Of a DNA stretch of 64,000 bases, positions 19,901-44,920 are shown in pieces (position 1 is the stretch's first letter; each line of letters starts with the position of its first letter). A program made the position numbers and the translations under genes. Location of the stretch: NCBI RefSeq assembly GCF_009455635.1, contig NZ_QPER01000001.1, forward strand, positions 1,612,001 to 1,676,000. Reading direction: 5' to 3'. The stretch is from Paraburkholderia agricolaris. Lineage in GTDB: Bacteria > Pseudomonadota > Gammaproteobacteria > Burkholderiales > Burkholderiaceae. The notes beneath the pieces are model-generated. The model did not search any database. It saw nothing but the letters and a program-made list of their open reading frames with translations, and was not told the origin of the DNA.

Positions 19901-22571
19901 CCGGCGCGGTGGCCAGCTCGTGCAGTTCGTACAGCAGGTCGAGCGCTTCGCGCGGCCGCAGGTCGTTCGGATCAATGGCGCGCAGGCGCTCGGCGAGTGC
20001 CTGCATCGCCGGCGATGCCGCTGCTTCCGGCTTCGCGCCGCGTTCGTCTTCGGCGTCTTCGAGGAGCATGGGCACAGGCGCCGCGAACAGATCGAGTTGC
20101 GGCGCGGGTTGCGCGGCGGACTGCTGTTCGAGATGCGCGAGATGCTTGCGGGCCGCGCGGATCACTGCGTTTGGCACCCCGGCCAGCTGCGCGACCTGCA
20201 AACCGTAGCTCTGATTCGCCGGACCTTCATTGACCGCATGCAGGAACACGATACCGTGCCCATGTTCGACCGCCGACAGATGCACATTGGCCGCGTGTGG
20301 AAACTCGGCGGGTAACTGCGTCAACTCGAAGTAGTGCGTGGCGAACAGCGTATGACAGCCGTTGTGCGAAAGCAGGTGCCGCGCGATGGCCCAGGCTAGC
20401 GCAAGGCCGTCGAATGTCGATGTGCCGCGCCCGATTTCGTCCATCAGCACGAGACTTTGCGGTGTCGCGTCGTTCAGGATCGCCGCCGCTTCGGTCATTT
20501 CCACCATGAAGGTGGAACGGCCGCCGGCCAGATCGTCCGCTGCGCCGATTCGCGTGAAAATGCGATCGATCGGGCCGAATGACGCGCGCCGTGCCGGCAC
20601 ATAGCTGCCGACGTACGCCAGCAAGGCGATCAGCGCGGTCTGCCGCATGAAGGTCGACTTACCGCCCATGTTCGGGCCGGTGATCAGCAGCAGTTTGCGC
20701 TCGGGGGTGAGCGTGCAGTCGTTGGCGATGAACTGCTCGACCTGGGCCTCGACAACCGGATGCCGGCCCTGCTCGATTTCGATGCCAGTGTCCGGCGAAA
20801 ACGTCGGTGCGACCCAATCGAGTGCGCGGGCGCGTTCGGCGAACGCGGCCAGCAGATCGAGTTCGGCGAGTGCTGCGGCAACCCGCTGGCAGTCCGGGAT
20901 AAAAGGCAGCAGCGCTTGCAGCAACGCGTCGTAAAGCGAGCGTTCGCGGGCCAGCGCGCGTTCCTGTGCGGAGAGCGCCTTGTCTTCGAACGTTTTCAGT
21001 TCCGGCGTGATGTAACGCTCGGCGTTTTTCAGCGTCTGACGGCGGCGGTAGTCGTCCGGCACCTTGTCGGTCTGGCCGCGTGTGACTTCAATATAGAAGC
21101 CGTGCACCTTGTTGTACTCGACGCGCAAATTGCCGATGCCGGTACGCGCCCGTTCGCGTGTTTCGAGGTCGATCAGGAACTGCCCGCAGTTCTCCGAAAT
21201 ATCCCGGAGTTCATCGAGTTCCGCATCGTAGCCGCGCGCGATCACGCCGCCGTCGCGCACCATGGCGGATGGCTCCTGCGCAACCGCGCGCTTGAGGAGC
21301 TCGACGCACGCTTGCGGCGGTTCCAGCGACGCGTCGATACGCGCCAGCGAATCTGCATTGGACGAAACGGCCGCGATTTGCGTGCGCAGTTCGGGCAACG
21401 CGATAAACGTATCGCGCAGGCTCGACAGATCGCGAGGCCGCGCGGACAGCAGTGCCAGACGCCCGGTAATCCGCTCGATGTCGGAAATCTGCCGCAACGC
21501 GCCGCGCAGCGTGTCGACGCTTGCCGCCAGCGGCGCGTCGAGCAATGCGCCGATGGCCTGCTGACGGGCTTGCGCCACGGCGGCTTCACGCGGCGGATGG
21601 TGCAGCCAGTGACGCAGCAGACGGCTGCCCATCGTCGTGCAACAAGTGTCGAGCAGCGAGCACAGCGTGGGCGATTCGGTGCCGCGCAGCGTTTCCGTGA
21701 GCTCAAGATTGCGGCGCGTAGCGGGGTCGAGGCCGATATATTCGGACTCGTACTCAACCTTCAGGCTGCGCACGTGGCGCAGTTGCTGGCCTTGCGTGGC
21801 CGCTGCATACAGCAGCAGCGCGCCTGCCGCTCCGCATGCGGCTGTCAGCGAATGCGCGCCGAAGCCGTCGAGGCCGGCCACTTCCAGTTGATCGCACAGA
21901 CGCTGCGTGCCCGAGGCGATATCGAAGTGCCAGACCGGTACGCGGGTGAGGGCGCCGGCGTTGACGGGCGGCGTCCAGCTCGCGGACTCGGCGGCTGTAT
22001 CCGCCACCAGAATTTCCGCGGGACGAATCCGTTCGAGCGCGGCGGCCACCTGGTCGGGCGCAACTTCAGCGAGGCGCAAGCCGCCGCTCGCCAGATTCAG
22101 CCACGCGAGCCCGACGCTCGTGACGACGCCGCGGCGGTTATGCGCGACGCACAGCGCCATCAGATAGACATCGCTCTTGTCGGACAGAAGGGCTGCGTCC
22201 GTCAGCGTGCCCGGCGTGACTACACGTACGACTTTGCGCTCGACAGGCCCTTTCGACGTAGCCGGATCGCCGATCTGCTCGCAAATCGCGACGGATTCGC
22301 CGAGCTTCACCAACTTGGCCAGATACTGTTCGACCGCATGATGCGGCACGCCCGCCATCTTGATCGGGTTGCCTGCCGACGCACCACGCTGCGTAAGTGT
22401 TAAATCGAGCAGGCGCGCGGCTTTTTCCGCATCTTCGAAAAAGAGTTCATAGAAGTCGCCCATCCGGTAGAACACCAGCGTGCCCGGATGATCCGCCTTG
22501 ATGCGTAGATATTGCTGCATCATGGGAGTGTGCGCTGACTCGGAAGATTTAACGTCCATATTCAGAGTCAT
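19887..22571 (-). CDS. mutS: DNA mismatch repair protein MutS
   Basis: Recognises mismatches and starts repair. The mismatch-wedge Phe-X-Glu is in [12 protein letters not shown] (about residue 35). The ATPase has Walker [16 protein letters not shown] (about residue 630) and Walker [17 protein letters not shown], followed by the [10 protein letters not shown] signature. At 894 residues it is full length. The start is at 22571; ATG at 22559 (MDVKSSES) is an alternative. A genomic island begins immediately upstream, so the native promoter region may have been altered. Confidence 0.96.
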
Positions 22572-22720: not shown

Positions 22721-24115
22721 ATGTCAAAAGCTACGTTCCGAACCGAGAGCGATGTTGCGCGCCTGCCTGTACCCACTGACCGCCCCTTTGTTGAGTACTG
22801 GCATGACACTCAAAAGGGATTCGGCGTGCGCATCGCAAGAGCGCATTCTCGCACGGGCGCTGTAAAAAGAACCTACATCGTGCGGCTACCGGAAGGCTCG
22901 CCGAGGGACAAAGACAACTTGGGCTTGGTGGGCGAACTAAAGTTCGACGATGCGTGGGACCTTGTGCGCGAGAAGCGTGCGGAGGCGAAACGGGATGGCC
23001 CCGGCACCAAGCGTAAGCCGACGGTGCAGGAGGCGTTCGATGCCTACATGACTGCACGTGCGTTCAGACACAAGAGTGCCACCGTTCGCGACTACCGAAA
23101 CAAGATGAAGCGGCTTGCGTCACTAACGCACGGCGCGGACGACATTTCCATTGCAGACCTTCGCGTCGACACGCTCGATTCTGCATTCTGGGAACAGGTG
23201 CACATCCGTATCCGTGAGGGGTATGGCAAAGTAATGGCGGATGCGGTGTGCCGGCTCGTGAAATTCGTCTACCAGCGTCTCGTCGAGCTGGGTGAACTTG
23301 AGCGCAACCCGGTCATCGCCTTGAACAAGCTGGGCATCTCTAAGCGTGCGAAGCCTAAGAATACCGCCATCCTTCCGGTCGACCTGCCGGAGGTGTGGAC
23401 TTGGATGCACAGCTATGCACATCCGGCTATCCGAGATTTTATGTGCGTAGAGCTGTTTATGGGGTTCCGCGACGGTGTAGTCCAGCGACTTCGCTGGGAA
23501 AATGTCGACATGGTCAACGGGACGTATTTCTTGCCTAAGGATGAGCCTGGTAACAAGGCAAACACTGACCTTGTGGTGCCCATTCCCGATTACCTGATGG
23601 AGCACGTCTTCAAACCCCGGTATGCCGCGCGAATGGATGACAGCCCTTGGGTCATTCCCAGCAACAAAAAGATTGGAAGCCCGCTCGTGAGCATCAAGGC
23701 GAGCCTCACGACCATGTGTGCTTACACCGGCATATCCACGTCTCCGCACGATTATCGGCGGACCTTTGGCACGGCCTCCGAGTTGGCTGTAGGAAGCTTG
23801 CTGCGTGTCGCTCGCCTGATGGCACATAGCACGGCGGCAAGCCCAGACAAGTTCAGTGTCACGGCCGGATACATCAATATGACGGACGAACAACTGCGGG
23901 AAGATATGAACAAGACAGCCGAAGTCATCTTGCGGCATGCAACCCAAGTGGTGGCAAAACCCGAGACAAACGGGCATATCTCGTTGCACGAGCGCAATAA
24001 GCAGAAGCAAAAGGCTGAAGCAATCGCCTACCGCAAGAAACGCGTCGCCCGCAATACCGAGTTGCTCAAAATCCGTAAAGCCAAGGGGGCTGCCGGAATT
24101 AAAGAAACCGCTTAA
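22721..24115 (+). CDS. Tyrosine recombinase / phage-type integrase
   Basis: Site-specific recombinase of 464 residues that probably integrated the island. The N-terminal part resembles the arm-binding domain of P4-like integrases. A core-binding domain follows (about residues 100-190). Catalytic residues are recognisable: Arg in MGFRDGVVQRLRW, the His-x-x-Arg box in SPHDYRRTFGT, a LMAHS segment, and the nucleophile Tyr in VTAGYINMT. The C-terminus is Lys/Arg-rich. It reads away from mutS, 149 bp from the mutS start. The far attachment site is not in the window. Confidence 0.9.
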   Translation: MSKATFRTESDVARLPVPTDRPFVEYWHDTQKGFGVRIARAHSRTGAVKRTYIVRLPEGSPRDKDNLGLVGELKFDDAWDLVREKRAEAKRDGPGTKRKPTVQEAFDAYMTARAFRHKSATVRDYRNKMKRLASLTHGADDISIADLRVDTLDSAFWEQVHIRIREGYGKVMADAVCRLVKFVYQRLVELGELERNPVIALNKLGISKRAKPKNTAILPVDLPEVWTWMHSYAHPAIRDFMCVELFMGFRDGVVQRLRWENVDMVNGTYFLPKDEPGNKANTDLVVPIPDYLMEHVFKPRYAARMDDSPWVIPSNKKIGSPLVSIKASLTTMCAYTGISTSPHDYRRTFGTASELAVGSLLRVARLMAHSTAASPDKFSVTAGYINMTDEQLREDMNKTAEVILRHATQVVAKPETNGHISLHERNKQKQKAEAIAYRKKRVARNTELLKIRKAKGAAGIKETA

Positions 24116-28806: not shown

Positions 28807-28831
28807 GATGGCTAAAATTATGACATGTCAT
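28789..28831 (+). promoter_or_regulatory. Putative HipB operator palindromes
   Basis: Two palindromes sit at the hipB start: TATGAT-TT-ATCATA (28789-28802) and ATGACATGTCAT (28820-28831). The second includes the first possible hipB start codon. HipB antitoxins repress their own operon through such paired sites, so autoregulation is likely. Confidence 0.6.
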
Positions 28832-29115
28832 TCATGGCTCAAATCAAAGCATTACTGGCAACGCGCGCAGTATCGGCGAAAGAGCTCGCTGAATTACTGG
28901 GCATCGCGCGCTCGAATCTGTCCGCAACGCTGGCCGGTAGGCACGATGCCCGAGGTTCAACGCTCGACGCACTGGCCGCAGGGCTGGACGCGGAGTGGGT
29001 GCTTGTCCCGAAGGAGCATATGCTGTTGGTCCGACAGGTGCTGGCAGGAAAGGGCACCGGTCCCGACCTTGAGGCCAAGAGCGCTGCAGAGTTGTTCTTG
29101 AAAGGCCGGCAGTGA
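28825..29115 (+). CDS. hipB: HipB-like antitoxin (XRE helix-turn-helix)
   Basis: A 96-residue DNA-binding antitoxin. The helix-turn-helix is clear: SAKELAELLGIARSNLSATL, followed by LDALAAGLDAEWVLVPKE, the HipB-type strand that follows the domain. A C-terminal tail follows. ATG 28825 or 28834 are both possible. The stop overlaps the hipA GTG (GTGA), as in typical hipBA operons. It should neutralise HipA and repress the operon. Confidence 0.85.
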   Translation: MSFMAQIKALLATRAVSAKELAELLGIARSNLSATLAGRHDARGSTLDALAAGLDAEWVLVPKEHMLLVRQVLAGKGTGPDLEAKSAAELFLKGRQ

Positions 29116-30413
29116 GTGTCGCTGCTCGTCCTCGCTACCTAGAAGTCCAGCTGTACGACCAAATCTGCGGCTATCTGTGCGAGCTCGGCGGAAACTGCCG
29201 GTTCGTGCCCTCGGAATCATTTAAGGCAGCTGGCGGTGGGCCGACTCTCACGCTCTCGATGGCCATTCCCGGTGTTCCGGCCATTGCGGCCGAGATTTTC
29301 TCAAACGCATTCCACCCAGCCCTCTACAACACCGGCGGAAAGTTGCCTCCGTTCTTTGCCGGTCTTCTTCCGGAAAGCGAACTTCGGAAGCGTCTCGAGG
29401 CGACCCGGCACAACCCTGAGGACCGGGACGACTTTGGCGTGCTGGCCGCGGCTGGTAAAGATTTGCAGGGCGCGGTGGTCATTCAACCGCCGGAGGACCC
29501 GCATAGCATTCCGGAGTACGCGCGCACCTTTGGCGCGACGGATGGCGCCGACAATGTCGAAGTGAGCATGACCGAAGGTGCTACGGAGGGGGTGGCCTCG
29601 ATTTCCGGTGTGGAGAACAAGCTCGCGCTGTCGACCGTACACAAGGGCAAGCGGTACACCATGCCGGGACATAGGAAGCTTTCTGACCTGATTGCTAAGC
29701 TTCCTGCGCGCAACGACGACTCGCAGGTGTTCAACGAATTCGTTGCCATGCAACTCGCCAAGGCGGCGGGTGTCAACGTCGCCACTTGCGAGCCCATGCC
29801 TTTGTCAGCCATCGATATCGAGGGGCTTCAGGCGACGGTGGGCACCGCTACCTCATTTCTTGCGGTCGAACGCTATGACCGGCGCGACAACCAACGCATT
29901 CACGTCGAAGACGGGTGTCAGGTGCTTGGACTCATGCCCATCGCCAAACACGGGAAGGCGGAGCAATACCGAGTCTTCTTGATGTTGCTCACAGAGTTGA
30001 GCCCGCGTGGTGTAAAGGACGTTCGAGAGCTTTTCGTGCGTCACGCGGTGAACACACTAATTGGCAACAGCGATGCCCATCTAAAAAACCACTCGGTGCT
30101 CTACGCCGAGAAAATGTTCCCTGAACTCGCGCCGGCCTACGATATTGTTTGCGTAGCGGCGCTACCAGGTTTCTCAACATACGGCACCAACGTGACGATT
30201 GACCGGGCTCAACGGACCCAAACACTCGGAGACTACAGATTGATGGCGCGCGCAGCGGGTGTGGCCGAGCGCATAGCGACCGCTGCAGTCAAGTCGGCAG
30301 TTTCTGCGGCAAAAGACACTTGGCCCAAGATGCTTGACGAACTGCCTACGCCGCGGGGCATGAAAGACATCATCCTTGAAAGGCTCCAGAACCTGCCATT
30401 GGCAAGCGATTGA
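29112..30413 (+). CDS. hipA: HipA-family serine/threonine kinase toxin
   Basis: Toxin kinase of 433 residues. The N-subdomain has NAFHPALYNTGGKLPPFFAGLLPES-type sequence. The kinase core shows SGVENKLAL (a P-loop-like segment), the catalytic loop GNSDAHLKNHSVLY (about residue 318) with Asp, His, Lys and Asn, and PAYDIV as the metal-binding Asp motif. E. coli HipA phosphorylates glutamyl-tRNA synthetase; the target here is unknown. All key residues appear present, so it is probably active. GTG start overlapping hipB. Confidence 0.87.
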   Translation: MSVAARPRYLEVQLYDQICGYLCELGGNCRFVPSESFKAAGGGPTLTLSMAIPGVPAIAAEIFSNAFHPALYNTGGKLPPFFAGLLPESELRKRLEATRHNPEDRDDFGVLAAAGKDLQGAVVIQPPEDPHSIPEYARTFGATDGADNVEVSMTEGATEGVASISGVENKLALSTVHKGKRYTMPGHRKLSDLIAKLPARNDDSQVFNEFVAMQLAKAAGVNVATCEPMPLSAIDIEGLQATVGTATSFLAVERYDRRDNQRIHVEDGCQVLGLMPIAKHGKAEQYRVFLMLLTELSPRGVKDVRELFVRHAVNTLIGNSDAHLKNHSVLYAEKMFPELAPAYDIVCVAALPGFSTYGTNVTIDRAQRTQTLGDYRLMARAAGVAERIATAAVKSAVSAAKDTWPKMLDELPTPRGMKDIILERLQNLPLASD

Positions 30414-31364
30414 AAAGGGGGCTTAGGGATAGCCGGAACGGCGGCTCGAGTCCGAGGTTCGCTCCGCTACAGCCGCACATCGATGGCGGGATGCCTTGTT
30501 GCATAACGCGTTAAGTTAAAGGCCTGCGGCTCGCTTTGTCATCAGCATTCTGGGCGTGAAACATTCGCGGTTTTTGTCTTGAAAAACGGCCGATTCCGTT
30601 TTGCTATCAATGGGTTGGCGGCAGAGGGAAATTAGCGAAAAATTCGTAAAACAACTGGCGGCAGCATAGCGTCATTATCTTAACGTTATGCTAAGAGGGA
30701 TAAATCGGGCGAAATACACGTTGCATCAACCGCATCCGATGCCTTTCCTTGTCTACAAACCAACCCTCTCTCGTCGCAGCGATTCGCGCAGCGGCTGCTT
30801 CCACTTCCACGGAACCCGTCTTTCTCGCGGCAGTGCTGGTGCTGGACATTGACCGTAAGCGCGTTGCTCACATGGCTGAAGACAGGAGTCTTTTTAACGA
30901 AGAGTCAGAGGAGACCCTTGGGGTCACCGAGAAGACCGCCACCGCGGCGATGAAGCCACACAGGCTGCGACATGGGCGAACGCTGTCTCGGCGAGGCCGT
31001 CATCGGTCGAGCACTGCGAGCAGAAGGGGACCGCATCGTCAAACTGGCGCCACCGCTTGAGTGGGTGAAATCAAATGAGCCCGACCTTGTTTTCAGTCGC
31101 ACGTCGACACTGCCGGCACTCAGCCTTGATATCAAGTGGGCTTCGTATCGCCGAAACGGACGCAGTTCGTGGACTGTCAACAATGGCGCGCACCGGCTTC
31201 ACGGGAATGTACGGTCAGCCTCAAGTGGTTGCTGTAGATGGGCGAAGAAACGAAGACGCTTCAGAACCAAAAAAGATGTCAAAACTGACATTGTCAGGAA
31301 AGATGGTTATATTTTGTTGACATTGTCGGCAGATGGACTATGCTTACGGTGACATTGTCGGAGA
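30414..31364. other. Gene-poor 950-bp stretch, probably decayed
   Basis: No convincing gene. Frames at 30749-31060, 30972-31352 and 31075-31320 overlap one another and share no motif, which looks like a frameshifted relic. GCATAACGCGTTAAG near 30502 recurs inverted as CTTAACGTTATGC near 30680, and GCATAGCG/CGTTATGC form a local inverted repeat at 30664-30691. These could be recombination-site or regulator remnants. Confidence 0.45.
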
Positions 31365-31370
31365 GTGCTC

Positions 31371-31937
31371 ATGCGCGATGACCTGCACAAGACGGTTCCA
31401 CTGGCTCGCCCCTGGGGGCGAGTGCTTCGGCGTCTGTCGCACGACAGGTGGTCATCTGAAGAACTCGCCCCTCTAATCGTGTCGACCGTGCAGAACGACC
31501 TCGCGGCCGATGACAAACATAGTGGGCAGGCGCTTGACGACACGCTACGTGAAGGTTGCAGCGACCTCTTCGATGATGGCGAGGAAAAGATGCGTTTTGC
31601 TCTACATCGGATTCTGGATTGCTCTCTTTCCGTCGCCACCCGTACCACGTGCGAGATTGCGCTAGGCGTGTTGGCTACGTACGGGATGTCACCCAGTTTT
31701 CGACAGCAGGTAACTCAGGCTGTAGGAGAGCAGCATGCTCGCGACCAATTCGAACATATGGCTTCCCGAATCGCATGTACTTGGGGTTATGAGGAAGCGA
31801 GTCAAGTGCGAGGTGTGTTAGCGCGTGCCCTCGAGTTGTGCGATTTCACGGCGCAGGTCAGGCGTCCCGCCCGCCGCACAGAAAAGTCTAAGTCTGTTGG
31901 CGAGTTCCTATCCACGGAACTCCAGTTGGGGCAATGA
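31371..31937 (+). CDS. Hypothetical protein heading the QueC/ImmA-IrrE/PIN cassette
   Basis: Not recognised. 188 residues from ATG 31371 (MRDDLHKTVPLAR), with GGAGAG six bases upstream. It is mostly helical; a hydrophobic stretch TTCEIALGVLATYG lies in the middle. The C-terminal tail is basic (RRPARRTEKSK). Its stop overlaps the QueC-like start by 4 bp (ATGA), so it is the first gene of a four-gene coupled unit. In other QueC-containing defence operons the neighbouring small protein is a modification target, which is a guess worth testing here. Confidence 0.7.
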   Translation: MRDDLHKTVPLARPWGRVLRRLSHDRWSSEELAPLIVSTVQNDLAADDKHSGQALDDTLREGCSDLFDDGEEKMRFALHRILDCSLSVATRTTCEIALGVLATYGMSPSFRQQVTQAVGEQHARDQFEHMASRIACTWGYEEASQVRGVLARALELCDFTAQVRRPARRTEKSKSVGEFLSTELQLGQ

Positions 31938-33331
31938 ATATGTTTCGCGCTTTCGCGCCGCCAACCCAAGGCTCCGTGACGGTTGTTGAGTCCGGTGCGT
32001 TTATCGTCAAGGGCAATCACTCGCAGGTGCCTATTTGTGATGGTCTGGACATACAGACGGGACTGCTCCACGAATTCTGCTTTACCGAGATAAGCCCTCT
32101 CTCTCGCGACCTGTCTGTGCTACTAGGCGCTGTCAAGTATGTCGACAGGTCGGTTCGTCGGAAGCATGGTCGTGGCTGGGAGCGCCACCTCAGTCTGACG
32201 GTGCCCGTTTATGAGATTGCAACTTGGCGGCGCGACGACGTCGCATCGACGTTGATGGATACCCTGCAGTACTTAACCGGCGACGTTTGGCAGGTCCGCT
32301 TCGTAAAGAGACGGAGGATTTCAGCCCCCTCCGGGCAGATGTCGTTGCCGGCTTCACCTGACAGGCGACGAGTTTTCGTTCCTTTCAGCCATGGACTGGA
32401 TAGCTTCGCTCAGAGCGAGCTGCTGAGGGCAAGCGAGATTGGGTTTGATGTCATACCTGTTCATTTGCGGTCGAGTGCTGTAGAGCAGACGATGAAATCA
32501 CTTGGGCGCAGCGCTAAACGAAAGCCAACGCCAATTCCGGTGTCATCGAACGTGAACGAGCCCAAACACGCAGAGCCGAGCTTTCGTACGCGTCCATTTC
32601 TATTTGACGGATTGGCAGCTTATGCGGCGGTTCTATCCGAGGGGGGCGAAGTCGTTATTCCCGAGAACGGGCAAGGTAGTCTGGGAGGGTCTTTGGTCAG
32701 ATTGGGTGCAGAAGCTCCGCACCGGAGTTGCCACCCCGGTTTTACTACACGCCTTGCACACTTCTTCGATTGCCTGACCGGAAAGAAAGTAACGTTCGTG
32801 CATCCTGCTCTGTTCCACACTAAGGGGCAGGTGCTCCGGAGTCTGTTGCAGGTCCAACCGGATAGCGTGGCTTGGTTAGCTGAGCATCCCTCGTGTTCCT
32901 ACGATGCACGTCATGCGAACCGAGGTGGCAAGAAGGTGCATTGTGGTGTTTGTGGCAATTGCTTGCTACGACGGACGTCAATTCTTGCAGCGGGTATTGT
33001 TGATTCGACAGACTATAAAGTGAGCGATTTGCACGCGAAGTCGCTGGAAGAGGCTATCGTGGCAGACGATAAGCTGCTGACTCTCGGTTCCTACAAGGAC
33101 ATCGCACGCAACGCGGCTAGAAGCATGCAGCGGCTGGCTGACCTCTCCAGTTCCGACAAACAATACCGCGTGGCTGCTGAAGCTGAAGGTCTGGCTAGCT
33201 ATCAGCGGCGTTCGCGAAGCGAAGTGCGGGATGCGCTCGACGGAATGCTTGAACAACACAGCCACGAATGGATGGACTTCCTGGGACACTGCGGGAAGTC
33301 GTCCTGGGTGGCACTACTCGCACGAGAATGA
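31934..33331 (+). CDS. QueC-like enzyme (7-cyano-7-deazaguanine synthase family)
   Basis: 465 residues. The PP-loop ATPase motif is FVPFSHGLDSFAQSELL (about residue 150), where QueC usually has SGGLDS. Next come a conserved ENGQGSLGG-like loop and a zinc-cysteine cluster: CSYDARHANRGGKK then HCGVCGNCLLRR (about residues 320-345). QueC makes preQ0; diverged copies occur in the Qat and type IV CBASS anti-phage operons. The extra ~140-residue N-terminal region and ~90-residue C-terminal region, and the neighbours here, argue for a defence or modification role rather than queuosine synthesis. Confidence 0.8.
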   Translation: MNMFRAFAPPTQGSVTVVESGAFIVKGNHSQVPICDGLDIQTGLLHEFCFTEISPLSRDLSVLLGAVKYVDRSVRRKHGRGWERHLSLTVPVYEIATWRRDDVASTLMDTLQYLTGDVWQVRFVKRRRISAPSGQMSLPASPDRRRVFVPFSHGLDSFAQSELLRASEIGFDVIPVHLRSSAVEQTMKSLGRSAKRKPTPIPVSSNVNEPKHAEPSFRTRPFLFDGLAAYAAVLSEGGEVVIPENGQGSLGGSLVRLGAEAPHRSCHPGFTTRLAHFFDCLTGKKVTFVHPALFHTKGQVLRSLLQVQPDSVAWLAEHPSCSYDARHANRGGKKVHCGVCGNCLLRRTSILAAGIVDSTDYKVSDLHAKSLEEAIVADDKLLTLGSYKDIARNAARSMQRLADLSSSDKQYRVAAEAEGLASYQRRSRSEVRDALDGMLEQHSHEWMDFLGHCGKSSWVALLARE

Positions 33332-33332
33332 A

Positions 33333-34496
33333 ATGGAGTTTGAACCGAAAGTTCGGCCGGAAGTGCTTGGCGCACGCCTGAAGGCCGCTCGAACGATGCG
33401 TCGGCTGACGCAGGAGGTCGCTGCCAATGCGCTAGGCATCGCAAGGACCACTGTTGTTGCAATTGAGGCAGGCAAGCGTCCAGTCAGTGTGGATGAACTG
33501 CGTGCTATGGCAGGGTTGTACGACGCCTCCGAAGTTGACCTGCTCGATGACGGGGCGGCGCCAGCGGAAATGCAGGTGCAATTCCGAAGTAGCGCTCCGC
33601 AACGCGGGGCCGACGACGAGGCTCTTGTCGCCTCGACGCTGAACAGGCTGGCTACCTCGGTTGTCCAGCTGGAAGCCTTGGTGGGAATGCCTGCGCCAAG
33701 AGTCGATGTCCCGTTTGTCTCGCTGTCGCGGGAGGAGCCGATAGAGCAGCAGGCAGAGGATGCTGCTCTTGCGGTGCGGGCGAGGCTCGGTCTTGGGACG
33801 GGGCCCATCCAGGACCTGAACGCATTGCTTGAATCCGAGCTCGGCCTTCGCGTATTTGAGAGGCCTCTGCCTTCGCGCATTAGCGGAGCCATGGCGTTCT
33901 CGGAGTCGACCGGTGGTTTTGTGCTCATCAATCTTAAACACCCGATTTACCGGCGGCGCGTTACTGCCGCTCACGAACTAGCCCATGCCGTACTGAGGAG
34001 TACGGGGCTTCTGGTGCATTTCGAGGATGCCTCGTACGAAGACCGGGAAGAGCGCTTCTGTGATGTCTTTGGTAGCTGCTTGCTCATGCCGGGGGCTTCA
34101 GTGCGCAAGAAGGCTGCCGAACTAAAGAAGCTCGTGGGCCGATTCACGGTGCGAGAGTTGCTGACGATGACCCTGTATTTCAATGTGTCAATGGAAGCGC
34201 TGGTTCGCCGTATGGTGGCGCTTAAGCTGCTTCCACAAGGTACCTACGAACGACTGAAGACGGACGGACTCAGCCTGAAGCATCAAGCGGCAGTGCGCGA
34301 TGAACTCGGCCTTACGCCGGAGCCGCCTAGCTTCACTGCACGCACGATGTTGCTGGCTGCTGCTGCCCATGAGCGCGAACTGCTAACCGAGCAGCAAATT
34401 GCATCCATGCTGGAACTGGACATATTGACCGTGCGCAAAGCACTAGATGAAGACTACAACGGCGGACAGGGGGAGGCGCTTGAGCTGGTTTCGTGA
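33333..34496 (+). CDS. XRE regulator fused to ImmA/IrrE metallopeptidase
   Basis: 387 residues. The N-terminal XRE helix-turn-helix (RLKAARTMRRLTQEVAANAL, then IARTTVVAIEAGKRPVS) is followed by a linker and an ImmA/IrrE peptidase domain with the zinc site AHELAH (about residue 215) and a downstream FGSCLLMPG segment with a FCDVF lead. Such fusions cleave or sense repressors and toxins and often pair with a PIN or other toxin. ATG 33333 is 1 bp beyond the QueC-like stop, so translation is coupled. Confidence 0.87.
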   Translation: MEFEPKVRPEVLGARLKAARTMRRLTQEVAANALGIARTTVVAIEAGKRPVSVDELRAMAGLYDASEVDLLDDGAAPAEMQVQFRSSAPQRGADDEALVASTLNRLATSVVQLEALVGMPAPRVDVPFVSLSREEPIEQQAEDAALAVRARLGLGTGPIQDLNALLESELGLRVFERPLPSRISGAMAFSESTGGFVLINLKHPIYRRRVTAAHELAHAVLRSTGLLVHFEDASYEDREERFCDVFGSCLLMPGASVRKKAAELKKLVGRFTVRELLTMTLYFNVSMEALVRRMVALKLLPQGTYERLKTDGLSLKHQAAVRDELGLTPEPPSFTARTMLLAAAAHERELLTEQQIASMLELDILTVRKALDEDYNGGQGEALELVS

Positions 34497-35043
34497 CCAC
34501 CTGCCAGCAGGGCAGCTCGTTCTGGACGCAAGCGTTCTCATCAACCTGCTTGGTTGCTGCGCGGCCGATGAAGTCTTTAGTGCGCTTAATCTGCCTTGCC
34601 TCGTCGAGGAGAAGGTTTTTGGTGAGATTCTTCGGCATCCGGTTCCTGGACTGTGTCACATGAAAGAACTCCAGGCGCTACAGGATGCTGGATTTATTGA
34701 ACGGGCAAGGATGGAGGACCAAGAGTATGCGAAATTCTTGACCCTTATTCAGGCGCCGTTGGGTCAACGGTTGGGCGCAGGGGAAAGTGCGACATTAGTA
34801 GTCGCCCAACAGAGGTCCCTGTCGGTGGTCATCGATGAGAACAAGGCTCGGTCTTATGTCAGGATGCAAATGCACCAGGTCGCTATGGTAAGCACCTTGA
34901 GGCTGCTAATCTCCGCTACGGTCCGTCTCGGGCGAGATGTGTCATATCTCCAAGGTCTAGTCGCGACCGCCAGACAGAATGCCAAGATGGGCATCGCAAA
35001 AGACGAAAGGCAGCTGTTCGCCGACGTTCTTGCCTGCAGATAA
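34447..35043 (+). CDS. PIN-domain protein (putative RNase)
   Basis: 198 residues. PIN-fold acidic residues are recognisable: Asp in LVLDASVLINLLG, Glu in VEEKVFGEILRHP, Glu in LGAGESATLVVA, and Asp in SVVIDENKARSY. This fits a stand-alone VapC-like or DUF3368-like ribonuclease. The frame overlaps the ImmA/IrrE gene by 50 bp from ATG 34447; TTG 34480, after GGGGGAGG, is an alternative that shortens the overlap. In XRE-ImmA/IrrE pairs, the PIN protein is usually the toxin. Confidence 0.8.
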   Translation: MKTTTADRGRRLSWFRDHLPAGQLVLDASVLINLLGCCAADEVFSALNLPCLVEEKVFGEILRHPVPGLCHMKELQALQDAGFIERARMEDQEYAKFLTLIQAPLGQRLGAGESATLVVAQQRSLSVVIDENKARSYVRMQMHQVAMVSTLRLLISATVRLGRDVSYLQGLVATARQNAKMGIAKDERQLFADVLACR

Positions 35044-35240: not shown

Positions 35241-36104
35241 CTAGTCTTGCTGAAAGGTCAGCAGTACAGCGCCTCTTTTGAGCTGTTCACCTTGTTTGAC
35301 CATGATTTCACTGACAACTCCGGGTTCGTTCGCCAGGTGCTCCGTAATAGACTTGTCGACTTCATACTCGAGCAGTACATCTCCAATCTTTACGGTGCTG
35401 CCTTTTGAAATGCGAACGCAGGTAAAAGTAGCCACCGTTTCATCACCGAGGTCATCAAGAATAACGGCCTTAGGCTGAGTTGCGATGGCATCGCTAGACA
35501 TATTCTCGACCAGCCTGAGAACGTCCTCGTTCCTTCCTTCGACAAACTCAGCGATTTTCAACCAGGGGGACCTGCCTGTTTTCAATAGTAAGTCGCGAGT
35601 GTAGTCGAGTATGTTCAGCCGGAAGGACATTGCCCCCCTGTTCAGGACGGTCATTGCCCTCTCGCCACCAGACACTGCCCGAAGCGCGGCAATCCGCACA
35701 GCCTCGGCCATTAACCATGGACCGAGCCATTCGCGCTTGTCTTCGGCAAGACGATTCTTTGCATACTCAATTTGTTCTGTGATGTGAACCAGCGACGTCG
35801 TCAATATGCCTTCATTGTCGAGCTCCAAGCCAAGCTTGACCGTCCTCACCTGTGCTGCAAGTTTCTCAAGCTGGTCCTGCTCTAGCTTCTGGGTGACCTT
35901 GCCGACAATGTCACGCGCGACAATGTCGAGCTTTTGTGACACGTCGTTGATTGCAGACAACACCTTCGCGTTGACTTCTTCACGGGCATTGGTGGTTGCG
36001 ACAGGTGTACTGTCTGTTCGCTCCTCACCTTCACGCAAATAAGATAGAACTTGTGAAGCAATTTTGTAGCTCTTTCGCAGCATGTCCAGCGTCCCAACAT
36101 ACAA
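35241..36104 (-). CDS. Coiled-coil protein with C-terminal lipoyl/biotinyl-like domain
   Basis: 287 residues from TTG 36104, preceded by GAGGAAGAGGG. The N-terminal half is a long coiled coil (KLDIVARDIVGKVTQKLEQ region). The last ~75 residues resemble a lipoyl hammerhead: EYEVDKSITEHLANEP, where EVDKS matches the ETDKA modification loop with its Lys, then GVVSEIMVKQGEQLKRGAVL. Whether the Lys is lipoylated is unknown. The frame stays open upstream with protein-like sequence (FKVFRCG, IVLSRCDYDTIEEEG) to an ATA codon at 36242, so the true start may be further up or lost. Convergent with the PIN gene. Confidence 0.7.
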   Translation of the reverse strand: MYVGTLDMLRKSYKIASQVLSYLREGEERTDSTPVATTNAREEVNAKVLSAINDVSQKLDIVARDIVGKVTQKLEQDQLEKLAAQVRTVKLGLELDNEGILTTSLVHITEQIEYAKNRLAEDKREWLGPWLMAEAVRIAALRAVSGGERAMTVLNRGAMSFRLNILDYTRDLLLKTGRSPWLKIAEFVEGRNEDVLRLVENMSSDAIATQPKAVILDDLGDETVATFTCVRISKGSTVKIGDVLLEYEVDKSITEHLANEPGVVSEIMVKQGEQLKRGAVLLTFQQD

Positions 36105-36345: not shown

Positions 36346-36633
36346 CTAGCCAACCCGCTTGCCCCGCAGGTTGATGAGCTCGAAAAGGCGCGTAGCGCCG
36401 GCAAGTGAGGGCGAAACATAAACGCTGACCTGCGCCTCAAGCAGCGTTTCATCCGCAAAATGCAGCTTTGGTCCAATCGAAGCACCGGTCCTTAACCAAG
36501 CTACTCGTTGCGTCTCGCTATTTCGAACCGCGTCGACCAAATATCGGTCGGCTGTGGTCCCATAGATAATCCTCGACAGTTTGAAGCACAATGGGACGTG
36601 CCTGTTCACTGTCAAGGATAGTCCAGTACTCAA
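36346..36633 (-). CDS. Uncertain small frame overlapping the GIY-YIG gene end
   Basis: A frame ending at 36346 and overlapping the last part of the next gene in another frame. The non-overlapping part reads like protein (PKLHFADETLLEAQVSVY, LFELINLRGKRVG). Only TTG or GTG starts exist and no ribosome binding site stands out. It could be a short coupled gene, a frameshifted extension of the GIY-YIG gene, or chance. Confidence 0.3.
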   Translation of the reverse strand: MSTGLSLTVNRHVPLCFKLSRIIYGTTADRYLVDAVRNSETQRVAWLRTGASIGPKLHFADETLLEAQVSVYVSPSLAGATRLFELINLRGKRVG

Positions 36634-37504
36634 GCACCAATGGCGTGCGAGACAGTTTTTCAGGAACCCAGCGTTTTAGATGAAGCGCATACGTCCCTTC
36701 GAATCCATAGCCAAAATGTTGCTGAAGCCTGCTTGCAAAGTTCCTTGAACTTCCGACATAGAGGGCGACTCCGTCCTCCGTCAGTTCATTCTTCCGGCTA
36801 AGCTTGTATGTGCGAGCCGAGCTCTCGGGGAATGCAGCGTGGAATTCTCCTGGTGCCTCGGTCTGGAATCGGTACACAACGAATTCGCCTTCGTCAGGGA
36901 GGCTCCATTCACCCAACCGGCGACGCAGTGCCTCGGCATTCGCAAAATCGGACAGCGAGCATTCAATTCGCTGGACTGGAGACAGGGCAAGCTTTGTCAC
37001 TTCTTCGGCAACACGCGACATCATTTTCCCAGCCTCTGTCGCCAGCGACCCACCGTCGAAACTCTCCGACAACATCGAAGGCGCTTGGGGGGACGATGTA
37101 TCCGCCCGGCCTTCGTCATTGACCTTAACGAACGAAAACCGACGACGGCTGGCGTCATATGTTCCCAAGCACAGATGCTCTAGCGCGGGAACGAGATAGC
37201 ACGCAACATTCTGGTTACCCTGTGCTTTCAGCCAGTCACCGATACTGCCAAGCGGCGGGTCCGAGAAATGGGTTCCAACAACGGCAGGGGCTGGTCTGGA
37301 GGCGAATTCTGTCAGGAGCGCATTGATAGTCTCGGGGCTAACGCGAACACGAAATGTCTGCTGCCCATTACCGAAGTGCAGTTCGATGCCCGCGTCTCTG
37401 CTTCCCGTGTATTCGAACTGTGCTTTGCCGGTTGCCGTACTAAGTTGCATCATCTCTTCCTCTTGGTCCTGACTCAAGCCTGTTAATGTCATTCGTGAAA
37501 CCAT
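36518..37504 (-). CDS. Protein with C-terminal GIY-YIG-like nuclease domain
   Basis: 328 residues from ATG 37504 (MVSRMTLTGLSQDQ). The first ~210 residues match nothing I recognise. The C-terminal ~110 residues resemble a GIY-YIG fold: GVALYVGSSRNFASRLQQH, where YVG replaces YIG and Arg and His follow at expected spacing, then a basic helix and an ending LWDHSRPIFGRRG similar to GIY-YIG proteins. The first half of the motif (VAL for GIY) is diverged. Possibly a DNA or RNA nuclease of the island's defence genes. Confidence 0.6.
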   Translation of the reverse strand: MVSRMTLTGLSQDQEEEMMQLSTATGKAQFEYTGSRDAGIELHFGNGQQTFRVRVSPETINALLTEFASRPAPAVVGTHFSDPPLGSIGDWLKAQGNQNVACYLVPALEHLCLGTYDASRRRFSFVKVNDEGRADTSSPQAPSMLSESFDGGSLATEAGKMMSRVAEEVTKLALSPVQRIECSLSDFANAEALRRRLGEWSLPDEGEFVVYRFQTEAPGEFHAAFPESSARTYKLSRKNELTEDGVALYVGSSRNFASRLQQHFGYGFEGTYALHLKRWVPEKLSRTPLVLEYWTILDSEQARPIVLQTVEDYLWDHSRPIFGRRGSK

Positions 37505-37622
37505 GATTTTTCTCAATACTTGGACGGTCGTTTTTTGCCCCTTGTCCTGCTTTCGACGCATTCCATCACATCCTCCACGGCCGTTTTAACGACCAATTCG
37601 TCTGTTTCCTTAAACGTCTGTG

Positions 37623-38450
37623 CTACGCGCTGCGGTCAAGCACCTTATCGAGTAGTTGAAGCGTTTCAAACGCCGCTCCCGAGATACCTAACCCTTTGGT
37701 TAGCGGTATCGAGTATTCGCGCGGGTTGATACGAATGACACGAGGTCCGTGGCGTTCGCTGAAACGCCTGACGGTCGGTAACGCCCGGCCAGCCCCTATT
37801 TCGACAACGACGAGTCGCTTGACAGACTCGAGCCACGTTGCAAGCCGCCTCTCTTGCCTGTCTGTGTATTTGCCGACCCATTTCCAGTCTCCGAACATCA
37901 GGATGTTCGGTCGTGCGAGCGCACCGCAGTGCGGGCAACTGGGCATCATGTTTTCGAGCAAGCAACTCGCCTCGTTGACGACAGGAGTAAAGTCGTCAGC
38001 CGGCCACGCGTCATCGGTGCAAGCCTCGACGCACTGAAGCCGATGGATGCTGCCATGGCATTCCACGATACGTTCAATATCAAAGTCAGCTTTCTGGCAC
38101 TGACCGTCGACGTTACTTGTAAACACGAATGCACCGCGCTTCATCGTTGACGCCCACTTGAGAAGAATGCCAAAACCTGCATGGGGTACGGTTGCGCGGT
38201 AGAGCGCAAGTCGGTGCCCATAAAATCCCCAGCTCAAGCGTGGATTGCTGGCAAAGCCAGCAGGGTTGGCGATGTCCTCGAACGAAAACCCCTGATGGCG
38301 CAGCGCGGGGTAGGCCTGCCAGAACCCCTCTGTTCCCCGAAAGTCGGGCAGCCCGGAATCCACACCCATGCCGGCTCCCGCAGTGATGAGCAACCCGCCC
38401 GCGTCGCGAATCCAGTCGGCTGCGTGTCTGATTGCATCGTCGTTATCCAC
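37623..38450 (-). CDS. SIR2-family NAD-dependent enzyme (sirtuin A)
   Basis: 275 residues. NAD-binding GAGMGVDSGLPDFRG (residues 25-39), TSNVDGQ (111-117), catalytic His132 in ECHGSIH, zinc cysteines at QCVEAC and CPHCG, and RPNILMFGD. All catalytic positions are intact, so it should be active as a deacetylase, deacylase or ADP-ribosyltransferase. It lies 57 bp after the WYL regulator gene on the same strand, suggesting cotranscription. A second, distinct SIR2 gene lies at 41517. Confidence 0.88.
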   Translation of the reverse strand: MDNDDAIRHAADWIRDAGGLLITAGAGMGVDSGLPDFRGTEGFWQAYPALRHQGFSFEDIANPAGFASNPRLSWGFYGHRLALYRATVPHAGFGILLKWASTMKRGAFVFTSNVDGQCQKADFDIERIVECHGSIHRLQCVEACTDDAWPADDFTPVVNEASCLLENMMPSCPHCGALARPNILMFGDWKWVGKYTDRQERRLATWLESVKRLVVVEIGAGRALPTVRRFSERHGPRVIRINPREYSIPLTKGLGISGAAFETLQLLDKVLDRSA

Positions 38451-41516: not shown

Positions 41517-42263
41517 GTGTCATCTGCACAGCATGTCCTGAGCCCACGCCTGTATGTATTTTCGGGGGCCGGCCTGTCCGCCAAGAGCGGGATTTCGACG
41601 TTCCGTACCGGAAGTGGTATGTGGACCAGCGAGAGCATCGACAAAGTCTGCAACTTCCTGACCTGGCGCCAGAACCGGGAGGCAGTATTTCGCTTCTATA
41701 ACGAGCGAATCCTCGAGAAACGGGACGCACGTCCGAACGAAGCGCACCGGATTCTCTCCGCGTGGCAAAACACTTGGGGAAACGAGCGCGTCCGGCTCGT
41801 CACCCAGAACATCGACGATTTGCTTGAGCGGGCTGGCGCGCAGCATGTCACACACCTTCACGGTGACATGCATTCGATGCTTTGTACGTCGTGTGACCTC
41901 CGCTTCCCTAAAGACGGACACGAATATCACCTTGACACAGCCTGCCCGCGTTGTGGCGAGGTTGAAGCGGTCAAGCCTGGCGTCGTGTTCTTCCAGGAAG
42001 ATGCGCCCGAATATATCAAGTTGCATCGAATGCGACTCGAAATGACCGACAACGACCTCTTCGTCGCGATTGGGAGCACCTTTCACATCGTTTCGCCCGA
42101 GAGTATGCTACCTCGCGAAAGATGGCATCAGCATGAGAGGAATTTTCTGATTGACCCGGAACCGCGTCGCACGGAGTTTTTTGGATGCGTCGAACCAGAA
42201 CTTCCGACTGTCGGCCTGCGCAATCTCGAAAGTCGCGTCCATGCTTTGATGACGATGCAGTAA
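41517..42263 (+). CDS. SIR2-family NAD-dependent enzyme (sirtuin B)
   Basis: 248 residues from GTG 41517, preceded by ATCGGAGGATGAAC. NAD-binding GAGLSAKSGISTFR (residues 17-30), TQNIDDLLERAG, catalytic His115 in HLHGDMHS, zinc pairs CTSC and CPRC, and VKPGVVFFQED in place of the usual RPxVVxFGE. It is a deacetylase-type fold and clearly different from sirtuin A. It is 38 bp upstream of the AddB-like gene and on the same strand, so probably part of the same unit. Confidence 0.87.
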   Translation: MSSAQHVLSPRLYVFSGAGLSAKSGISTFRTGSGMWTSESIDKVCNFLTWRQNREAVFRFYNERILEKRDARPNEAHRILSAWQNTWGNERVRLVTQNIDDLLERAGAQHVTHLHGDMHSMLCTSCDLRFPKDGHEYHLDTACPRCGEVEAVKPGVVFFQEDAPEYIKLHRMRLEMTDNDLFVAIGSTFHIVSPESMLPRERWHQHERNFLIDPEPRRTEFFGCVEPELPTVGLRNLESRVHALMTMQ

Positions 42264-42301
42264 AGCGTGGCATTCAAGGATTGCCTTACTCGAGACCCCT
42301 T

Positions 42302-44920
42302 ATGCATATCATTCTTGGACTGAGCCTGGACAGTCGACTAGGCCCGTCCCGCAAGGACGCCCTTGACCAGCCTGTTGTCGGACCCATGGGCCTGCTCGGA
42401 TTTCTCGAAACCTGGCTGGGACTGAGCCGTCCTGAGGTGAGCGCGGCGCAGCGCGTAGCGAGCTATCTCGGGCACCTGCACAGGCAAACCGGGCAGCCGC
42501 GGTTCTATGGTCGTTCGCTAGAGGCCGATGGTGTCGGTACGAGCGCCAAACTTCTTTCGTGGCGTGACGAATGGCGTATGGGCGGCTGGGATGGAACTGC
42601 ACCCGCGGACAGTCCCAAACGGCTGCGGGAGATGGCAGAGGTGGAGCACAGTGCGATGGGCAACATCCCACCCGGAGAGGCAGAACGGCTCGCGGCTGTA
42701 CTCGCAGCGCTCGAAACTGAGCGGACGCCAATCGAATCGGTACTGCTCGTCGACCCGCTGGACAGCTTCCCGCGGTTGTGGCGCGAGGTCCTCTCGCGCC
42801 TGCCAGATGTCAGGGAGTGGCAGCCCGAGCCTCAGGGCGATGGACTGCTTCGCGCACTTCAGCAGCACGCGTTCGAGGCGGTTACGCAAGGGGAGCTTCG
42901 TCCACTCGTGAACCCGATTGCTGACGGCAGTGTTGTACTTGTTCAGGCGTCGACCCGAGAAGCCGCTGAGCACTGGCTCAGCGCACATTGCCGTCAAGCG
43001 GCCGCCGACCGGCTTCTGGTCTGCGAGTCGGACGGCGATGCTGTTGACGCCACGATGATGGCGACTGGCGGAGCCAGCTGCGGCTTTCGCAATAGCAGCA
43101 GCTTGCGCCCTGCCTTGCAAGCCTTGGGGCTGGGACTGGAAATGTGCTGGGACCCGGTCGACATCGGGCACCTCGTCGAGTTTCTGTCACATCCCATCGG
43201 ACCCTTCCGCCGGAAGGCGCGAGTCCGTCTCGCAAAAGCTGTCGCAGAGCAGCCGGGTATCGGAGGTGGCGCCTGGGAGTCAGCGAAACAGGAAATTCGT
43301 ATCGAAGAGAACGGCGATGCCGTACTTGGGGACATCGCTTTCTGGCTCGAGGGCGAGCGCTGGAATCGTGATGCCGGCGCACCGGTGGATGCGCTGCTCG
43401 CACGGGTCGAGAAGCTGACTGGCGCATTACGCAAACGGCTGGCGGACGATGGTCTGCTGAACGCGACGCTCGGCGCTGCGATAGAGCAATGCGCGGCTGT
43501 TCGGGACGGGCTGCTCGAATTGAAGAATCAGGGTGCTCCCAACATTACGCCGCGCGTGGTCGAACAGCTACTGGAACATGCTACGCCAACAGGCGCAGGG
43601 AATCCGTTCGCGCCAGCGCAGGTGAGCTGCCTTCGGGCAGAGTCGGATACCGCTGCGAGCATTGAGCCAGCCGACGAGGTCATCTGGTGGATGCCTTCGA
43701 CCCCGCAGTTGCCGCCACCACTTCACTGGACAAAGTCGGAACTTGAGGCACTCAGTAACTTTGATGTCGAGATACGAAACCCGCAGCGTGAACTGGAGCT
43801 ATTTGCGCGGCAGTGGCTGCGTCCGCTGCTGGCTGCTAGGCGGAGGTTCATCATGGTCCTCCCGCCTCCGGGGGCTGAGGAGCATCCCGTACGGCAACTG
43901 CTACTGAAACTGTGGCCAGAATTGATGAAGCACCGTGTCGACCTTGACGCACAAGTTGAAAGTGAGTTTGTCGGGACGCTCGCAGAAAACCTCAAGCACG
44001 GGGCTTTGCGTCAAACGTCTCATCCGCTCGACCTCGGTGAGTCGATTCCGCTGCCGACGAAAGAGCAGTCGTACACATCCATGTCCGAGCTGTTCAATGC
44101 GCCGGCACTCTTCGCGTTCAAGCGTATTGCGAGTCTGAGGCCGGCCACAATACTTGAGGCAACGGAGGGCAGCAGGTTCCTTGGAACGCTCGCACACCGA
44201 GTCTTTGAAAAACTGTTCCAGGAAACAGGCAGTTTGAGCTGGACCGACGAACAGGCATTGACTTGGTTCCGGGGTAACGTGGACGCTCTCCTTGCGACAG
44301 AGGGCGCGCTGCTGCTGATGCAGGGCGCAGGCGTCAACAAGCAAAGATTTGTCCGCGTATGCGAAAACGCCATTCGCTCCCTGATGCGTTTCCTGCGCGC
44401 AGCGGACGCGATGAGGGTTCAAACCGAACTGCCTGTTGCGGGCAAACTCGGTGACGTGTCGCTTATCGGCAAAATTGATTTGCTCGTAGAACTGCGTGAC
44501 GGCAGGGCTGTCGCGCTCGATATGAAATGGCGCGGGGACAGCCGCTACGCCGGCGAGTTGCTCAATGGTCAGCATCTCCAGCTGGCACTCTACTCGTTGC
44601 TTTACCAGCAGCAAACGGGCGTGACTCCGGCAGCGCTCGGATATTTCATTCTGGAGTCTGGCGCGATGTACGTGAGTGCGCCAGACGTTATCCCGACCGC
44701 CCAGGTTCGCATGCCTCCGTCCGGCACGACCATCAATCTGCTTCAGCAGGCAACGGCCAGTTGGGGTTGGCGTGCGGACCAGTTTGCCAGGGGCCAGGTC
44801 GATGTTGTTCCGGTCGACGGAGGGGACGATTTCCAGGGTCCCGATGGAACGCTGCCTGTCGCCGGGCCAAAGGCATGGGATAGGGACTACACGGTACTGC
44901 TGGGGGGCTGGGACCAATGA
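42302..44920 (+). CDS. AddB-like PD-(D/E)XK nuclease protein
   Basis: 872 residues from ATG 42302 (MHIILGLSLDSRLGP). The first ~600 residues form an inactive helicase-like scaffold, as in AddB. The C-terminal RecB-type nuclease has His in LGTLAHRVFEKLF (about residue 627), KIDLLVELRDGRAVALDMKW (Asp and Asp-x-Lys) and LQLALYSLL. An iron-sulfur Cys set as in canonical AddB is not obvious. Its stop overlaps the AddA-like start (ATGA), so the two should form a complex acting on DNA ends. Confidence 0.8.
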   Translation: MHIILGLSLDSRLGPSRKDALDQPVVGPMGLLGFLETWLGLSRPEVSAAQRVASYLGHLHRQTGQPRFYGRSLEADGVGTSAKLLSWRDEWRMGGWDGTAPADSPKRLREMAEVEHSAMGNIPPGEAERLAAVLAALETERTPIESVLLVDPLDSFPRLWREVLSRLPDVREWQPEPQGDGLLRALQQHAFEAVTQGELRPLVNPIADGSVVLVQASTREAAEHWLSAHCRQAAADRLLVCESDGDAVDATMMATGGASCGFRNSSSLRPALQALGLGLEMCWDPVDIGHLVEFLSHPIGPFRRKARVRLAKAVAEQPGIGGGAWESAKQEIRIEENGDAVLGDIAFWLEGERWNRDAGAPVDALLARVEKLTGALRKRLADDGLLNATLGAAIEQCAAVRDGLLELKNQGAPNITPRVVEQLLEHATPTGAGNPFAPAQVSCLRAESDTAASIEPADEVIWWMPSTPQLPPPLHWTKSELEALSNFDVEIRNPQRELELFARQWLRPLLAARRRFIMVLPPPGAEEHPVRQLLLKLWPELMKHRVDLDAQVESEFVGTLAENLKHGALRQTSHPLDLGESIPLPTKEQSYTSMSELFNAPALFAFKRIASLRPATILEATEGSRFLGTLAHRVFEKLFQETGSLSWTDEQALTWFRGNVDALLATEGALLLMQGAGVNKQRFVRVCENAIRSLMRFLRAADAMRVQTELPVAGKLGDVSLIGKIDLLVELRDGRAVALDMKWRGDSRYAGELLNGQHLQLALYSLLYQQQTGVTPAALGYFILESGAMYVSAPDVIPTAQVRMPPSGTTINLLQQATASWGWRADQFARGQVDVVPVDGGDDFQGPDGTLPVAGPKAWDRDYTVLLGGWDQ

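Follow-up and report, generated by a model that had tools for sequence, protein, structure and literature searches.

A conserved, mobile four-gene cassette with a QatC-like enzyme and a RosmerTA-like pair in Paraburkholderia agricolaris is probably a defence operon

What does a QueC-family enzyme do in one tightly packed gene set with a predicted protease and a predicted RNase? This question is raised by positions 31371 to 35043 of a stretch of 64,000 nucleotides from Paraburkholderia agricolaris (hereafter the window), which is part of an 8.72-Mb genome. An earlier note, made from the sequence alone, had described four coupled genes here: the first two overlap at ATGA, the next pair is 1 bp apart and the last pair shares 50 bp. 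We reproduced the coordinates and the three junctions, naming the genes g1 to g4 in order (Table 1). We find that these genes form a real, conserved and mobile unit. It is probably a defence operon, in which a QueC-family pair (g1 and g2) would be joined with a RosmerTA-like pair (g3 and g4).

A conserved and mobile four-gene unit

The earlier note had allowed for the four genes occurring together only here. This turned out not to be the case: the cassette recurs in P. silviterrae, in seven other genomes (four more of the same family and three others of the phylum) and in 25 plasmid records. We studied 22 loci, namely the window, the genome loci L001, L025, L027-L029 and L033-L035, and the plasmid loci L038-L049 and L051, which represent 13 of the 25 plasmid records; L026 duplicates the L001 record and was left out of this count. 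All 22 loci carry the four genes in one order and differ in their flanking genes. Because this synteny holds in 22 loci and persists down to about 28% identity of g2, the four-gene set is a non-chance association. A cassette on a Mesorhizobium huakuii plasmid (L048, 4381-5767) has g2 split into two frames and IS66 genes adjacent.

The four genes also diverge in parallel. Pairwise distances of the four proteins correlate with r of 0.85-0.96 for the six gene pairs (21 loci), and for each pair none of 2000 permutations gave a correlation as high.

Plasmid searches with the individual genes converge on the same records. For the 25 plasmid records with an enzyme of the g2 clade, g3 and g4 adjoin g2 in every case, and g1 was detected by tblastn in 16, each time in the adjacent position. 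Searching with g3 gave 35 records; the best 25 are those of the g2 clade, after which the next match falls from 278 to 123 bits; the remaining ten, at 26-32% identity, lie outside this set. The search with g4 returned 26 records, and the one beyond the 25 is an orphan PIN gene in Microvirga with no g1-g3 match within the surrounding 10.6 kb. Twenty of the 25 plasmid records are typed as conjugative or mobilizable.

Within the family, 21 of 299 sampled genomes gave some match, and the cassette is present in six of them, counting the genome of the window. A qatC-type locus accompanies it in one of the six, and the other 15 of the 21 have qatC-type loci only.

Table 1. Coordinates of the cassette and its features in the window
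Feature	Position	Strand	Remark
Operator-like repeat 1, TGACATTGTC, here the full palindrome TGACATTGTCA	31286..31295	+	sequence repeat
Putative sigma-70-like promoter, TTGACA-16-TATGCT	31317..31344	+	2 sites in 221 bases against a mean of 0.1 in shuffles
Operator-like repeat 2, TGACATTGTC, overlapping the -35 box TTGACA (31317-31322)	31318..31327	+	similar sites in relatives
Operator-like repeat 3, TGACATTGTC, between -10 and start codon	31350..31359	+	sequence repeat
g1	31371-31937	+	188 amino acids; ATG start fixed by relatives
Conserved N-terminus of g1, MRDDLHKTVPL	31371..31403	+	sister clade reads M[ST]DGPx[RK]
g2	31934-33331	+	465 amino acids; QatC-like QueC-family enzyme
Altered pyrophosphate loop of g2, SHGLDS, residues 152-157	32387..32404	+	motif comparison with QatC rows
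Substrate-pocket loop of g2, APHRSCHP	32714..32737	+	aligned with cassette and QatC rows
Cysteines C321, C337, C340 and C343 of g2	32891..32962	+	conserved in alignment; predicted to bind zinc, as in QatC
g3	33333-34496	+	387 amino acids; XRE helix-turn-helix fused to ImmA/IrrE (M78) metalloprotease
HELAH of g3	33972-33986	+	M78 metalloprotease motif
g4	34447-35043	+	198 amino acids; PIN-like RNase, candidate toxin

A QatC-like enzyme with a candidate partner

The earlier note had read g2 as a QueC-family gene with an altered SHGLDS loop and a zinc cluster. The loop and a set of conserved cysteines were located, and the enzyme could be refined as a relative of QatC. By profile comparison QatC is a closer match than QueC: g2 scores 142.6 bits against the NCBIfam QatC model NF041925, short of the equivalog cut-off of 280, matches the PADLOC QatC model at 1.9e-40 (residues 54-438 on model positions 57-448 of 453) and the PDB QatC chains 9zee/9vlk at about 9e-20, and reaches only 15 bits, under the cut-off of 22, with Pfam QueC. 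As far as sequence can tell, the QueC core carries N- and C-terminal extensions and zinc cysteines, as in QatC. We rejected g2 as a canonical QueC (about 220 amino acids with SGGxDS and YPDC) on its length and its SHGLDS and APHRSCHP loops. The genome holds its own canonical QueC at C1:112024.

A tree of 21 cassette enzymes and 18 QatC rows parts the two groups by one 100/100 branch; the tree covers these rows only, lacks an outgroup, and drew a warning from the program about long branches that meet. The motifs divide in the same way. S[HNDEK]G[LM]DS is found in all 21 cassette rows, against SGG in 17 of the 18 QatC rows and WGG in one; E[NS]GQG is found in 21/21, against ENG[LF]I in 18/18; SGGxDS is absent from all 21, as is ST[RK]T, present in all 18 QatC rows. 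The split is blurred by SGGLDS in 2 of the best 120 of 215 database matches of the window's g2.

The substrate pocket differs within the cassette clade. Most of the cassette enzymes (15/21) read Y-x-D-[YH]-R in this loop, and the window's own enzyme lacks Y-x-D; HRS[CA][HY]P occurs in 116 of the best 120 of the 215 database matches, the window's enzyme included. In QueC and in Cap9, the Tyr and Asp of Y-x-D are reported to contact deazaguanine (PMC13279940). Profile alignment with hhalign places Y-x-D-[YH]-R on YPDCR of the genome's canonical QueC (probability 85%, E 5.8e-6), and the same comparison gives 2.7% for the QatC profile and 2.3% for the window's branch. Four Y-x-D-type enzymes exceed the Pfam QueC cut-off, with the match starting 1-5 residues before the motif in three and after it in one. 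This placement is sequence-based, and its register shifts if the alignment is anchored on the following His-Pro, which is common to QatC. Qat defence reportedly needs the T278/T280 pair of QatC (PMC13279940). That pair, in STRTTHP, is absent from the window's g2, which reads APHRSCHP.

All nine carrier genomes searched hold a canonical QueC and a QueE-like gene, the latter below the curated cut-off and beside queC in seven, so the base precursor should exist in these cells. The presence of QueC in carriers is non-discriminating because QueC is common.

The first gene of the cassette matches no Pfam, PADLOC or NCBIfam family, with single weak matches only across 22 members. AlphaFold2 predicts an all-helical body (mean predicted local distance difference test score 81) with a low-confidence C-terminal tail; confidence in the first ten residues is middling. 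The ends of g1 are conserved. MRD[DG]x[HW][KRT] is found in 28 of the 29 matches of the window's g1 (itself included; one internal), while M[ST]DGPx[RK] is found in 116 of the best 120 of 223 g1 profile matches (ten internal). A C-terminal [DN]xG[PV] likewise occurs in 116 of these best 120, against none of the 29.

Residue 2 of g1 is Ser or Thr wherever g2 has the Y-x-D loop (15 loci), and Arg in the six without that Tyr. In the window's branch the N-terminus of g1 (R2) and the pocket of g2 (Ala or Pro for Tyr) are both altered, which contact between the two would predict; the co-variation amounts to about one change on the tree. The place of g1, directly before g2, is that of QatB in Qat, and hhalign of g1 against QatB gives 0.5%, which is no sequence link. 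We regard g1 as a candidate substrate or partner of g2 and a possible counterpart of QatB.

An XRE-ImmA/IrrE protein, a PIN-like protein and an operator-like repeat

For the other two genes the earlier assignments, an XRE-ImmA/IrrE protease and a PIN nuclease, are borne out by family matches. In g3 the XRE helix-turn-helix (HTH_31, 1.6e-11) is fused to the ImmA domain (Peptidase_M78, 5e-15), and HExxH, HELAH in the window, is kept in all 21 loci scanned. Its best PADLOC match is RmrA (1e-33), followed by weaker matches to capP and capH. The window's g4 itself has no Pfam match; its aligned family of 20 members (L027 and L048 excluded) matches PADLOC PDC-S70 in 20/20 and Pfam PIN in 7/20, and the acidic quartet D27, E60, E113 and D130 is invariant in all 20 rows. 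To judge from these matches, g3 and g4 resemble a RosmerTA-type pair of an XRE-ImmA/IrrE regulator and a PIN toxin. In the NetFlax study, PIN-like domains are among the toxin partners of ImmA-type antitoxins, and a RosmerTA is reported to protect against phage (PMC10440598).

More distant relatives of g3 have a different setting. Of the ten plasmid records outside the g2 clade, four were viewed (L053-L056); in each, one gene for a protein of 167-202 amino acids comes after the XRE gene, with no g2 annotated. This second gene has no Pfam PIN match, and a DUF2188 gene lies upstream in L053 and L055.

Upstream of g1, the repeat TGACATTGTC recurs three times with a 32-bp period, and in the window no repeat precedes g3. 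Sites like the palindrome TGACATTGTCA (at most one mismatch, either strand, within 150 bp of g1) are found in 19 of the 22 loci, 13 of them exact; L038, L041 and L042 have none within these limits. Among control windows of the same loci, 19 of 4085 contain a similar 11-mer. This contrast is somewhat flattered because most of the control sequence is coding and a TTGACA promoter of any kind has bases in common with the repeat. The exact 11-mer occurs at three places in the whole 8.7-Mb genome. The natural reading is that the repeats would serve as the operator to which the XRE part of g3 binds, and their conservation suggests self-control of the operon. A fourth copy of TGACATTGTC lies on the minus strand at 35904-35913, inside a lipoyl-domain gene.

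The cassette region is lower in G+C, and the drop starts near a phage-integrase-family gene (22721-24115) upstream of the cassette, likely the entry end of an island. Beside it lies 19887-22571, which we take to be mutS. Just upstream of the cassette are an HTH gene and a HipA-like gene (28825-30413; HipA_C 3.6e-42). Past the cassette and the lipoyl-domain protein, the minus strand encodes a SIR2 protein and a GIY-YIG-like protein that falls just short of the Pfam threshold (36518-38450). Farther on, at 41517-48399, PD-(D/E)XK and UvrD helicase-nuclease genes come after a SIR2 gene, possibly as another defence cluster.

Related systems and a proposed mechanism

The closest known systems are Qat, the type IV cyclic oligonucleotide-based antiphage signalling system (CBASS) and RosmerTA. 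The earlier note had matched this gene set to no named system, and this part of it stands for the literature searched, in which we found no matching named system; relatives were identified in QatC and RosmerTA. No published description of the four genes together was found among the papers listed in searches on QatB/QatC, QueC with CBASS, XRE/ImmA/PIN with QueC, RosmerTA with QueC-like proteins or PDC-S70, and deazaguanylation, with bioRxiv, supplements and most subscription papers outside their scope. In the main text of a survey of the QueC family, neither peptidase, XRE nor toxin occurs (PMC13329287).

With Qat (qatABCD) the cassette shares a QueC-family enzyme of similar length with zinc cysteines, an enzyme gene that immediately follows the gene of a helical partner whose N-terminus is conserved, and a patchy distribution. 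It differs in the S-x-G-[LM]-D-S loop of g2 in place of SGGxDS, in having no ST[RK]T, in a g1 that begins MRDD or M[ST]DGP where QatB begins MGTS, in the position of g2 across the 100/100 branch, and in its coupling with a repeat, an XRE-ImmA gene and a PIN gene. No QatA NTPase or QatD TatD nuclease was found in the window (Pfam, PADLOC) or in 11 plasmid loci (annotation); in the survey, about 34% of the QatC cluster have qatA as a neighbour (PMC13329287). Membership of Qat was considered and rejected, as the cassette falls below the NF041925 cut-off and has neither SGGxDS with T278/T280, nor an MGTS-type QatB, nor adjacent QatA and QatD. The 17 qatC-type loci that we collected (L008-L024) have a GTS-starting QatB-like frame upstream in 15 and a frame with H[CSA]HLDLYP, TatD-like by eye, after qatC in 16, and show no g3 or g4 match within the roughly 4 kb examined; in L050 such a TatD-like frame is annotated as qatD.

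Type IV CBASS (Cap9-Cap10-CdnD) offers the idea of a QueC-like ligase whose target is the N-terminus of its partner: Cap9 is reported to take part in attaching deazaguanine to the N-terminus of the cGAS/DncV-like nucleotidyltransferase (CD-NTase) (PMC11996544, PMC13279940). The Y-x-D-[YH]-R loop of 15 of the 21 cassette enzymes would be a further likeness if its alignment with QueC YPDCR holds. However, g2 has 465 amino acids against about 185 for Cap9 (PMC13329287), the window's g2 lacks Y-x-D, and no CD-NTase or Cap10-like gene is present among the ten window proteins scanned (28.8-38.5 kb).

RosmerTA (RmrA-RmrT) and the Xre-COG2856/PIN pairs resemble g3-g4 in the XRE-ImmA/IrrE fusion with an intact HExxH and the overlapping PIN-like gene that follows. 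They differ in that g3 is preceded by g2 in 25/25 plasmid records and that the repeats of the window stand before g1 and not before g3. The logic of an XRE repressor and an M78 protease recalls CapH/CapP and IrrE-DdrO, whereas g3 holds both domains in one polypeptide, beside a PIN gene.

We tentatively favour, at slightly less than even confidence, a self-repressed, mobile defence operon in which g2 would modify g1 and g3 would restrain the PIN RNase. The sequences establish the linkage of the four genes, their active-site motifs, the repeats and the parallel divergence. In favour of this reading are also the RmrA match of g3, the published pairing of ImmA antitoxins and Xre-COG2856 fusions with PIN toxins (PMC10440598, PMC2701414), the defence reported for QatBC alone (PMC13279940), and the matches of some neighbouring genes, chosen by eye, to models of defence systems. 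By analogy with QatB/QatC and Cap9, g2 would bind g1 and spend ATP to attach a nucleobase-type group to its N-terminus, and g1 with the attached group would be the armed sensor or partner. The XRE domain of g3 would bind the TGACATTGTCA repeats and keep the operon low, with g3 also holding g4 in check. Infection, DNA damage or single-stranded DNA, the last of which is reported to activate PprI and CapP (PMC10904395), may then activate the ImmA/IrrE protease of g3, so that the repressor would be cleaved, by itself or in trans, and the operon induced. The freed PIN RNase would cleave RNA, and the resulting growth arrest would stop phage growth.

A more specific claim is that this is a third kind of QueC-based immunity, with a 7-deazaguanine-type base on the N-terminus of g1 and the modified g1 gating an ImmA-controlled PIN RNase. 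It bears on this claim that most of the sampled cassette enzymes appear to keep the base-recognition motif of QueC, lost in QatC; we still consider it rather doubtful.

A different division of labour, which we hold to be fairly unlikely, makes the QatBC-like pair g1-g2 the effector and leaves g3-g4 to regulate or guard: g3 would repress the operon, and the PIN protein would kill or arrest a cell once the cassette is lost or its repressor comes under attack. Since the repeats precede g1, g3 may indeed control g1-g2. QatBC alone, without QatA or QatD, is reported to suffice for defence against lambda vir, with the N-terminus of QatB essential (PMC13279940), and the XRE and single-gene pairs of the four distant records also speak for this arrangement. 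Against it, neither half was found alone in the 25 plasmid records at this similarity, bar the orphan PIN of Microvirga, and the halves therefore appear to act as one unit.

The high share of conjugative or mobilizable plasmids would also suit a selfish addiction module of plasmids or islands, with an XRE-ImmA antitoxin, a PIN toxin, g1-g2 modifying the activity of the toxin, and no anti-phage role. The gene order and overlap are of the toxin-antitoxin type, and Xre-COG2856 fusions are described next to PIN or RelE toxins (PMC2701414). Yet the strict retention of a QatC-like enzyme and its partner is, in our judgement, odd for a simple toxin-antitoxin pair, and we consider this reading unlikely. 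Defence genes in several flanks also argue against it, with little weight: ten neighbours chosen by eye match models of Shedu (two loci), type I restriction-modification, PDC-M65, HEC-06, GajB and Lit, and AbiE genes are annotated beside other cassette loci. Homologues of the PADLOC candidate system PDC-M65A/B adjoin the cassette copy of L025 (1724-5141).

Finally, we consider it very improbable that g2 serves in house-keeping nucleobase metabolism (as an alternative enzyme for preQ0 or for base salvage) and is hitched to a toxin-antitoxin pair. Its QueC family and zinc site would agree with this, as would the cassette enzymes of four of the nine carrier genomes searched, part of whose length matches Pfam QueC above the cut-off, but all nine already have a canonical QueC, g2 is long with altered loops, and no gene is annotated as queD or queE in 11 annotated plasmid cassette loci. 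An unnamed radical S-adenosylmethionine protein is encoded 2.8 kb upstream of the cassette in L051.

The reaction of QatC is described as unresolved, its in vitro reconstitution having failed (PMC13279940). A clade that appears mostly to keep the Tyr-Asp motif of QueC could be more tractable for nucleobase-protein conjugation outside CBASS. With a QueC-family duo paired with a protease-toxin module in one operon, the cassette would tie the modification of a protein to the cleavage of a repressor and of RNA.

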